Positions 3,698 to 8,581 of a stretch of 11,879 nt of DNA are shown in pieces. The position numbers and the translations under genes are program-made. How positions within the stretch are numbered: position 1 is the first letter of the stretch; each line of letters opens with the position of its first letter. The notes beneath the pieces are model-generated. The model was not told where the DNA came from. It saw nothing but the letters and a program-made list of their open reading frames with translations, and made no database searches. Source of the stretch: Pseudomonadota bacterium (GTDB lineage: Bacteria > Pseudomonadota > Gammaproteobacteria > Xanthomonadales > Rhodanobacteraceae). Location of the stretch: assembly GCA_018241165.1 (NCBI GenBank), contig JAFEEK010000506.1:1-11879 (forward strand), read 5' to 3'.

Positions 3698-6160
<2,463 letters not shown>

Positions 6161-7240
6161 TTATAGCAAGCCGCGCAGACCGCCATGTTCCACGTGGAAC
6201 AGCGTGATGGCATCGGGTTCGGCGCGCAACGGCTCGGGGATTTCCACGCCGGAAATCAGCACCTGCTCGGCATCGCGGCGTAGCCAGCCAAGCACGCGCG
6301 CCTGGTGTTCGAGATCCAGTTCCGAACCCAGGTCATCCAGCGCGATGATCGGCCACTGCCCGCTTGCATCCGCGTGAACCTGTGCCTGGGCGAGTACGCA
6401 TGCGAGCGCGCAAAGCTTTTCCTGCCCGCGTGACAATTGCCCGCGTTGCGGCGCCTGTTCGAAACGAATCGTCCAGTCGGCTCGGTGCGGGCCGCGGCTG
6501 GTGTGACCACGCATGCGGTCGTGGCTTCGTCGCAGCGCAAGCAGATCCCGCAGATTCGCATCGATCGGCCAACCGCGATCCCATTCGATGCTGAACTCCC
6601 CCAACTCGGGCAGGAATTGCCCTGCGAGTTGCGTCAATCGGTCGCAGAACCGCGAAAAGTACTGCTGGCGATGAAGGTCCATCGGTGCCGCTGCGCTGGC
6701 GAGTTCCGTATCCCAGGCATCAAGTTCACTGTCGGTCGCCCCGCCTTTCAGGGCCATGTTGCGCTGGCGCAGGATGCGCCGATAGCGCGCTGCCGTCGCG
6801 AGATAAGCATGTTCCACGTGGAACACGCCCCAATCCAGAAAGCGCCGGCGCTCGCGGCCGGAACCGGCAATCAGTTCATGACTGCCGGGTTCGAAACACA
6901 CCACGGCGGTTTCACCCAGTACGGCGCCAAGGTTCGTGGCGGCGGTTTGATCGATGCGACCATTCCAGCCCGAGTCGTCCCGAATAAGCACGATTCGGCG
7001 AGCGCGTTCTGCGCTGCACACGGTTGCAGCTGCCGCTAGACGCTTCTCGCCGCGCCGGATCAGGTCTTGCGTCGCCCCCAAACGGAAACTTTGCGCGTGG
7101 GACAGCAGGTAGGCGGCTTCAAGGATACTGCTCTTGCCGGCGCCATTGGGCCCGACAAAGACATTGATGCCCGGCGCCAGCGCCACGTCGAGCGTGGCGA
7201 TATTGCGCAGGTTTTCGATGTGCAGTTGCTCCAGGCGCAT
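6161..7240 (-). CDS. recF: DNA replication and repair protein RecF
   Basis: The protein has 359 aa, normal for RecF (E. coli 357). It is an SMC-like ATPase that, with RecO and RecR, helps load RecA at single-strand gaps. Walker A is GPNGAGKSS (30-38), the ABC signature is LSRGQEK (269-275) and Walker B is IIALDDLGSELD (298-309). RRRFLDWGVFH (131-141) is also typical of the family. A GGAG about 9 nt before the ATG supports the start. The gene follows dnaN by 31 bp, and its stop is 36 bp before the gyrB ATG, in the classic dnaN-recF-gyrB order. Two perfect parS palindromes lie inside the reading frame and encode FHVEH at residues 140-144 and 348-352. Confidence 0.97.
   Translation of the reverse strand: MRLEQLHIENLRNIATLDVALAPGINVFVGPNGAGKSSILEAAYLLSHAQSFRLGATQDLIRRGEKRLAAAATVCSAERARRIVLIRDDSGWNGRIDQTAATNLGAVLGETAVVCFEPGSHELIAGSGRERRRFLDWGVFHVEHAYLATAARYRRILRQRNMALKGGATDSELDAWDTELASAAAPMDLHRQQYFSRFCDRLTQLAGQFLPELGEFSIEWDRGWPIDANLRDLLALRRSHDRMRGHTSRGPHRADWTIRFEQAPQRGQLSRGQEKLCALACVLAQAQVHADASGQWPIIALDDLGSELDLEHQARVLGWLRRDAEQVLISGVEIPEPLRAEPDAITLFHVEHGGLRGLL
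6186..6201. promoter_or_regulatory. parS: parS centromere-like site (3' end of recF)
   Basis: TGTTCCACGTGGAACA is a perfect 16-bp palindrome and matches the parS sequence bound by ParB in Pseudomonas and close to that in Bacillus subtilis. It lies about 2.2 kb from the candidate oriC, where chromosomal parS sites are expected. It encodes FHVEH at residues 348-352 of RecF. An identical copy is at 6810-6825. ParA and ParB are not encoded in the window, so binding is inferred from sequence alone. Confidence 0.88.
6810..6825. promoter_or_regulatory. parS: parS centromere-like site (middle of recF)
   Basis: Second exact copy of the 16-bp palindrome TGTTCCACGTGGAACA, about 1.5 kb from the candidate oriC. 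It encodes FHVEH at residues 140-144 of RecF, within the conserved DWGVFH region. Two identical 16-bp palindromes in one 1.1-kb gene are very unlikely by chance, which strengthens both calls. Confidence 0.88.
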
Positions 7241-7271: not shown

Positions 7272-8372
7272 TCAGAGGCGCAGCGGCATGATTACATGCC
7301 GCGACTGCTCGCTGCCCGGGATGCGCAACAGGCAACTGGAGTTGGCGTCGCGCAGGCACAGCAGTACTTCTTCGCCTTGCAGGGCATTGAGCGCATCCTG
7401 CAGGTAATTGACGTTGAAGCCGACGCTGAGCTCGTTCACGCCGGTGCGCGCTTCGAGTTCTTCGACCGCTTCTTCCTGTTCCGGATTGTGCGCGACGATG
7501 CGCAGCTTGCCGGGACTGACTTCGAGTTTCACGCCGCGGTATTTCTCGTTCGACAGGATCGCCGCGCGCTGCAGGGCGCCGCGCAGCGATTCCCGCCCGA
7601 TATGCACTTCCTTGTCCGCGCCGATCGGCACGACCGCTTCGTAATCCGGAAAGCGGCCATCGATCAACTTGGAAGTAAACACGACATCGTTGTGGCGCAC
7701 GCGCAAGTGGTTGCGGCCAAACTGAAGCTCCACATCGCCTTCGCCGGACTCGAACAAGCCCTGCAATTCGACGACACCCTTGCGCGGGATGATGATCTGG
7801 CGCTGTGCTGCCTTGCCCCCTTCCAGCGCGGTTTCCGACATCGCGAGCCGGTGCCCGTCCGTGGCGACGCAACGCAAGGACTTCTCGCGCAGGTCCAGCA
7901 AAAGTCCGTTGAGGTAGTAACGCACGTCCTGGTTTGCCATCGCGAACGCGGTGCGATCCATTAATTCCTTGAGCGTATTTTTCGGCAGCGTGATCTTTTC
8001 GATCACCTCGATGTTTTCGATGACCGGAAACTCGGTGGCCGCCAGGGTCGCCAGGGTGAAACGGCTGCGGCCGGAGCTGACTGTCACGCGGTCGTTGGCG
8101 AGCTTGAACTGAATCTTGCTGCCATCCGGAAGAGCACGGCAGATATCGAAGAGTTTGCGCGCCGGAATCGTCACTTCGCCAGCGTCCGCGTCAACGGCAT
8201 CCACGCTCGCCGACATTTCCACCTCGAGATCGGTGCCGGTAAAGCTCACCTTGCCCGATCCGGAAACCACCAACAGGTTGGACAGCACCGGGAGCGTCTG
8301 CCGGCGTTCCACCACACCAATGACCTGTTGCAACGGCTTGAGCAAAACTTCGCGTTGGATACTGAAGTGCAT
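7272..8372 (-). CDS. dnaN: DNA polymerase III beta subunit (sliding clamp)
   Basis: The protein has 366 aa, the exact length of E. coli DnaN. It forms the dimeric ring that holds DNA polymerase III and many repair proteins on DNA. The start MHFSIQREVLLKPLQQVIGVVERR, the segment TLPVLSNLLV (about 26-35), CVATDGHRLA in the second domain and the end HVIMPLRL are all family hallmarks. The three repeated clamp domains of about 120 aa account for the full length. A GGAAG lies about 10 nt before the ATG at 8372. The gene is separated from dnaA by the 209-bp candidate oriC and followed after 31 bp by recF. The weak -10-like TATAAC in the gap (- strand) could serve a dnaN promoter, but I see no good -35 for it. 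Confidence 0.98.
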   Translation of the reverse strand: MHFSIQREVLLKPLQQVIGVVERRQTLPVLSNLLVVSGSGKVSFTGTDLEVEMSASVDAVDADAGEVTIPARKLFDICRALPDGSKIQFKLANDRVTVSSGRSRFTLATLAATEFPVIENIEVIEKITLPKNTLKELMDRTAFAMANQDVRYYLNGLLLDLREKSLRCVATDGHRLAMSETALEGGKAAQRQIIIPRKGVVELQGLFESGEGDVELQFGRNHLRVRHNDVVFTSKLIDGRFPDYEAVVPIGADKEVHIGRESLRGALQRAAILSNEKYRGVKLEVSPGKLRIVAHNPEQEEAVEELEARTGVNELSVGFNVNYLQDALNALQGEEVLLCLRDANSSCLLRIPGSEQSRHVIMPLRL

Positions 8373-8426
8373 GGTGGTTGCTTCCGTGATTTTGGTTATT
8401 TATGTGGAAAGAGCTGTTATAGGGCC

Positions 8427-8435
8427 TGTGGATCA
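8427..8435 (-). promoter_or_regulatory. DnaA box, one mismatch
   Basis: TGATCCACA on the - strand differs from TTATCCACA at one base. It lies on the dnaN side of the AT-rich stretch and just upstream of a TATAAC element, so it could also affect dnaN transcription. Confidence 0.5.
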
Positions 8436-8455
8436 TGGGGACTGTTTTTTTCCCC

Positions 8456-8484
8456 TTGTAAATCAAATAAATACATTCACATTT
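8456..8484. other. AT-rich DNA-unwinding candidate
   Basis: Only 5 of 29 bases are G or C, in a strongly GC-rich window. It lies between DnaA boxes, as expected for the region first melted by DnaA. The placement is inferred from composition and position. Confidence 0.6.
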
Positions 8485-8519
8485 CCGGCTGAAAGCATGT
8501 TGAGCGTTTCTTGCTTGCT

Positions 8520-8528
8520 TGTGGATAT
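8520..8528 (-). promoter_or_regulatory. DnaA box, one mismatch
   Basis: ATATCCACA on the - strand differs from the consensus at the first base. It faces the perfect box at 8555-8563 in opposite orientation, forming an inverted pair next to the AT-rich stretch. Confidence 0.65.
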
Positions 8529-8532
8529 GTCG

Positions 8533-8573
8533 GTGCGCCGCATTGTTGCACAACTTATCCACATCCGGCGCAC
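8533..8573. other. Inverted repeat enclosing the perfect DnaA box
   Basis: GTGCGCCG (8533-8540) and CGGCGCAC (8566-8573) are perfect 8-bp complements. The 25 bases between them hold the perfect DnaA box and a smaller GTTGCACAAC near-palindrome. The structure starts 8 bp after the dnaA stop, so it could also fold at the 3' end of dnaA mRNA. No T-tract follows, so a simple intrinsic terminator is not supported. Confidence 0.6.
8555..8563 (+). promoter_or_regulatory. Perfect DnaA box
   Basis: TTATCCACA matches the high-affinity DnaA box exactly. It lies 18 bp downstream of the dnaA stop codon in the candidate origin. Confidence 0.85.
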
Positions 8574-8581
8574 AGTTGTCT

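Follow-up and report, generated by a model that had tools for sequence, protein, structure and literature searches.

The window, which is the whole stretch of 11,879 nucleotides that was analysed, is one entire contig of the source assembly (2.45 Mb in 515 contigs, 89.55% complete). The genes dnaA, dnaN, recF and gyrB follow each other in this order on the minus strand (Table 1), dnaA, dnaN and gyrB being named from sequence. The gap between dnaA and dnaN is the putative oriC. The recF gene carries two copies of a perfect palindrome that lie 624 bp apart and in the same reading frame, so that the peptide FHVEH is found both at residues 140-144 and at residues 348-352.

Table 1. Positions of the genes and features in the window.
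Feature	Position	Strand	Remarks
gyrB	3698..6160	-	Longest ORF, with the true start probably internal
recF, 359 aa, carries both parS sites	6161..7240	-	TIGR00611; matches solved RecF structures
dnaN (beta clamp)	7272..8372	-	Named from sequence; its translation locates the gene beside gyrB in relatives
dnaA-dnaN gap, candidate oriC	8373..8581	.	Exact DnaA box at 8555-8563
dnaA	8582..10102	-	Longest ORF, start codon uncertain; named from sequence and gene order
parS site 2 (probable), perfect 16-bp palindrome TGTTCCACGTGGAACA	6186..6201	.	C-terminal end of recF; read L-FHVE-H
parS site 1 (probable), identical palindrome TGTTCCACGTGGAACA	6810..6825	.	Middle of recF; read V-FHVE-H

An earlier, sequence-only reading of this DNA had pointed out the two identical palindromes in recF as unique in the window, and a scan of the 11,879 bases allowing up to three mismatches confirmed this, giving no further copies. 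Shuffled versions of the window contained on average 0.03 matches, and two matches were reached in none of 200 shuffles. From the base composition of the window about 0.0004 exact copies would be expected in 2.45 Mb, against the two that are found, and a chance palindrome was rejected on these grounds. These two are the only exact copies in the 89.55%-complete assembly, so that the origin bias predicted for a genome-wide scan is borne out in that the exact 16-mers are confined to the recF of the window, close to the candidate oriC and beside dnaN and dnaA. A third place in the assembly (C39:5201-5216) differs from the palindrome by two mismatches. The proposed location within about 2.2 kb of the candidate origin also holds, the exact DnaA box lying within the putative oriC. 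The parS family has been described by the consensus forms TGTTNCACGTGAAACA and TGTTCCACGTGGAACM (PMC7022226; PMC5098823), and the palindromes fit the second of these. Both are very probably the parS sites of this chromosome, and the suggestion that they mark its centromere gains support from the same two recF positions recurring in relatives.

The sequence-only reading had further held that a genome lacking parB would speak against a parS function. In the source assembly a search with the TIGR00180 profile gave no ParB match, which at first looked like such a case; an assembly gap is the better explanation. ParB is present in all 59 other order-level relatives. The nearest of these, G015, has a RecF that is 91% identical, and its parB is found on a 4-kb contig together with parA and an rsmG-like gene. 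This rsmG-parA-parB contig matches positions 3607-5075 of contig C497 in the source assembly (G000) at 92%. The C497 locus (length 2,969) is flanked by 1,500 bases on one side only, which means that the contig ends at 5075; it carries rsmG, and its end falls inside parA. ParB is thus probably missing from the assembly and not from the organism. The expectation that parA and parB would be found nearby was only partly borne out, parAB often being distant from recF in relatives. On single contigs G019 has parB and recF about 489 kb apart, G008 about 444 kb and G031 about 39 kb. In G021 the distance is about 240 kb if the contig is circular; G019, G008, and G021 all belong to the same family. One could also imagine that the lineage has lost ParABS and that the palindromes are left over from it, as the missing TIGR00180 match in the assembly would suggest. 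Both copies are perfect, however, the nearest relative encodes ParB, and C497 holds rsmG and breaks off within parA, making such a relic most improbable; the apparent loss was accordingly judged to be the same assembly gap.

ParB residues that contact parS have been described, among them an arginine and a glycine, as has the set Gln/Lys/Lys/Arg that gives Noc its specificity (PMC7383237). All of 13 ParB-family proteins, taken from relatives only and chosen by the motif GERRWR, display GRSR (R173) and GHA[RK] (G201) and have no lysine at 179 or 184, the residue register being taken from an alignment to 6t1f. The Noc-type set is absent from all 13.

Among the matches listed, the closest named RecF proteins are about 50-51% identical and include those of Luteibacter and Rhodanobacter. 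Xanthomonas citri is presumably also a relative, the order having been assigned from gene order. Sites with at most one mismatch to TGTTYCACGTGRAACA are present in all 60 order-level genomes, the source included, and their number is exactly two in 47. recF could be aligned from 58 of the 60, G053 and G046 being dropped as they gave partial matches only. Site 1 is intact in all 58 genes and site 2 in 54, the four broken ones having CAT instead of CAC. In G053 (L078, L076) the match to recF is only weak and partial and contains no parS, and two TGTTTCACGTGAAACA sites are found near genes named from sequence as mnmG, rsmG, and parAB. L032, L071, and L072 have additional parS copies 47-191 bp from site 2 of recF. 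A recF pseudogene keeping its parS was considered for G043 and rejected; the ORF is intact, and the apparent stop comes from the alignment running past the ORF end.

The class was sampled by 106 genomes, one per family label. A recF match was found in 88 of these, while at least one exact 14-bp parS core is present in 92 and exactly two in 66. ParB was found in 101 (E <= 1e-20). The class-level set consists of the 86 recF genes that had not been collected before. Of these, 71 have an intact site 1. Site 2 is intact in 67 of the 84 with data, or in 68 of 85 when corrected for L167, where the alignment has shifted a site that is in fact there; L088 is cut by a contig end and has no data for site 2. 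By alignment, 60 of the 86 genes have both sites intact. Counting by position also gives 60, now with L167 and without L111, whose site 2 is found 102 bp ahead of the stop. Combining the two approaches gives 61 genes with both sites, seven with site 2 only, nine with site 1 only, eight with neither and the one that is cut. The spacing of the sites ranges from 600 to 669 bp. Fourteen of the 106 genomes have no exact core, and 11 of these encode ParB (G061, G063, G083, G096, G097, G105, G133, G141, G142, G157, and G158); their sites or the specificity of their ParB may have drifted. The opposite case is seen in G159 (L093), an assembly of 300 contigs with two cores at the end of recF and no ParB match, where the absence of ParB is possibly an assembly gap.

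A separate scan with the site-1 pattern gave at least 118 loci, and recF was readable in 115 of these. Among the matches listed, 92 of the 108 with data have an intact site 2, a site for which the pattern had not selected. Titles are listed for 80 of the 118 loci and include Pseudomonas, Acinetobacter, Lysobacter, Rhodanobacter, Marinobacter, and Alcanivorax, as well as Methylophaga, Legionella, Chromohalobacter, Pseudidiomarina, and Photobacterium. Two contigs titled as Klebsiella pneumoniae MAGs (L264 and L220) also match the recF-parS pattern. L264 encodes a RecF with just 36% identity to its E. coli counterpart, and the label is therefore probably wrong; the L220 locus contains no recF ORF. 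A 22-bp pattern covering the recF context, which misses variant contexts, was found in 36 of 89 genomes of the same class and, outside the class, in five of 160 genomes of the phylum, these five being counted irrespective of the gene in which the match falls. Taken together, comparison of the genomes supports the parS pair being an old element of the class.

That the same peptide is read at both sites raises the question of whether the protein or the DNA is conserved. When the 90 conserved recF columns of the order set were ranked by codon uniformity, ranks 1-6 were occupied by the histidine, valine and glutamate codons of the two sites, five of the six columns using one codon exclusively. When the order and class sets are combined, 61 columns are conserved, and ranks 1-5 all come from the two sites. 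Elsewhere in the recF genes of the order set histidine is encoded by CAC in 51% of cases, valine by GTG in 48%, and glutamate by GAA in 47%. The glutamate is replaced by lysine at 15 places in the order set and 23 in the class set, always encoded by AAA, which preserves a valid parS half-site; elsewhere 62% of the lysines are AAA. GAG is found three and two times in the respective sets. In one named genome (L301) the lysine at site 2 is encoded by AAG, and there the core is broken. AAA also tends to be paired with TTT, as palindrome symmetry would demand. The pairing is seen at site 1 in both sets (p=0.0003 for the class, p=0.03 for the order); at site 2 it is seen in the order (p=0.003) but does not reach significance in the class (p=0.084). 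Little weight is given to this pairing because an AT-rich base composition could favour both codons. Judged from the codons as a whole, selection acts on the DNA of the sites, beyond the peptide they encode.

The palindromes could alternatively be by-products of a peptide, FHVE, that RecF needs twice, the likeness to parS then being incidental. The residues found where the DNA site has been lost bear on this, and they were counted in a pool for which the class set was supplemented by E. coli and by 24 recF genes read from 35 genomes hand-picked for lacking the site-1 pattern; these 24 were used for the residue counts only and not for any frequency. The core is lost from 37 sequences at site 1 and from 39 at site 2, the latter number and the site-2 residue counts including one wrong row (L167); L102 and L161 are also poorly aligned. 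At site 1 phenylalanine is then found in 37 of the 37, histidine in 28, glutamate in 20, and valine in three, and at site 2 phenylalanine in 32 of the 39, valine in 26, glutamate in 20, and histidine in 11. Three of the four residues at each site thus remain common without the DNA site, as would be expected if the protein itself needs them. Moreover, six of the sequences that keep the peptide at site 2 belong to a single Vibrio-like genus (f122, g154; six genomes), which has FHVEH there with a broken core and another codon, indicating that the site-2 peptide is of some value of its own in this genus. On the other hand, FHV[EK] as a whole is retained in only two of 37 sequences at site 1 and nine of 39 at site 2, E. 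coli RecF has FHNE and FTVE at the two positions, the synonymous positions are nearly frozen, and parS stays at its chromosomal spot in genomes without recF (see below). A twice-needed peptide is hence a very unlikely main cause and was rejected as such on the codon uniformity, the parS sites at recF-less junctions and the lost-site residues, even if part of the peptide is supported by the protein. What we infer instead is that parS settled on stretches that RecF already offered, F-H-x-E at site 1 and F-x-V-E at site 2, and that V142 and H349 are present mainly for the centromere.

Eighteen of the 106 genomes sampled from the class gave no match to recF. A gyrB-grade locus was found in 14 of these, 11 of them with dnaN upstream of gyrB. 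G142 stands apart among the 11 in having a remnant of recF (matching residues 3-62, without a 200-aa ORF) between dnaN and gyrB, together with a two-mismatch site. dnaN adjoins gyrB in the other ten, and in seven of these (G145, G161, G067, G117, G122, G152, and G104) the junction contains one parS core or two closely spaced ones; loci with such junction cores and no recF match are L173, L175, L176, L177, L178, L181, and L182. The junction is without parS in G141, in G073, which has no ParB, and in G140, where parS is found near parAB instead. In G068 a core is located just upstream of gyrB, with a different gene in the place of dnaN, and the loci of G147 and G084 contain neither dnaN nor a parS core, with no ParB match in either genome. 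A related pattern is seen where a single site has been lost. In five of the 16 class genomes with one site (L093, L127, L131, L151, and L129) a parS starts 1-10 bp past the recF stop, compared to two of the 61 with both sites (L120 and L146) where parS overlaps the stop or lies within about 10 bp of it. We read the post-stop site as a replacement for the lost internal one, although it might also be an older third copy. As far as these loci tell, the parS element persists at its spot in the chromosome after recF is gone, and its persistence at the dnaN-gyrB junction suggests that there the centromere, and not the gene, has probably been held more strongly.

Placement of parS within recF is already known from Pseudomonas aeruginosa, where parS1 and parS2 are found within this gene (PMC5521831) and the consensus is TGTTCCACGTGGAACM (PMC5098823); the interesting part here is the age of the arrangement and its hold on RecF. 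P. aeruginosa has in addition parS3, parS4 and further sites, ten being reported in all (PMC5521831). The source assembly differs in that the recF pair is its only exact set, in line with the two sites per genome, at up to one mismatch, that are the rule in the order (47 of 60). Inactivation of all four oriC-proximal parS sites of P. aeruginosa led to about 25% anucleate cells, while a single site suffices (PMC5098823; PMC4368675). X. citri has a near-identical chromosomal parS, TGTTCCACGTGGAACG, at a distance of about 3 kb to its origin; at least one site is placed at the 3' end of dnaN, and the available text describes no pair in recF (PMC3937727). Caulobacter crescentus uses the same palindrome family and the same ParB contact residues (PMC7383237; 6t1f alignment), but its native parS cluster is not placed in recF in the text available. 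Among recovered parS insertions in Caulobacter, recF-gyrB was a hot spot (PMC5815017), which fits this being a spot suited to a centromere. Neither a class-wide recF pair nor the codon lock nor persistence without recF was found in the literature searched, a coverage that leaves out many subscription papers and, with regard to the pair, Livny et al. 2007, a parS survey according to papers citing it.

The P. aeruginosa work also suggests another reason for the sites to stay where they are, namely that, besides serving segregation, ParB loaded in recF would tune the expression of the dnaA-dnaN-recF-gyrB operon. An excess of ParB lowers the transcription of genes near parS1-4 in this species, and the authors tie operon interference to the two sites in recF (PMC5521831). 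The retained position in seven genomes without recF would also agree with such a role. However, ParB at its native level was described to affect only genes beside the intergenic parS3 and parS4, and not those at the intragenic parS1 and parS2 (PMC5521831), and nearness to oriC may alone account for the position. We regard a regulatory contribution of this kind as rather unlikely, though less so than a peptide by-product or a relic.

In our opinion the palindromes are, with high probability, parS sites at which ParB is loaded, an old element of the class that is held in recF by selection at the DNA level. By analogy with the known systems, a CTP-bound ParB dimer would bind each site, close as a clamp and then slide off over recF and the neighbouring genes, and ParA would move the ParB-coated origin regions apart; both the clamp loading and the ParA-driven movement are presumed for the source organism. 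The sites would exploit the F-H-x-E and F-x-V-E stretches of RecF and add to them the fixed codons for histidine, valine, and glutamate, and would probably also demand valine as residue 142 and histidine as residue 349. Robustness may be the simple reason for which two sites are so often kept, although one suffices in P. aeruginosa.

It seems probable, from the comparison of genomes, that a two-site centromere has resided in recF since early in the history of the class, that it sets the codons and in part the residues V142 and H349, and that it outlasts recF and is held above the gene. A bacterial centromere and a repair gene would then have shared the same letters over a long evolution, in a case where the constraint on the DNA and that on the protein can be told apart. 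Many ParB-bearing members of the class are predicted to load ParB in the middle and at the end of recF or, if they lack this gene, at the dnaN-gyrB junction. Deleting recF in such bacteria may also remove the centromere, and the resulting phenotype may then not concern repair at all.
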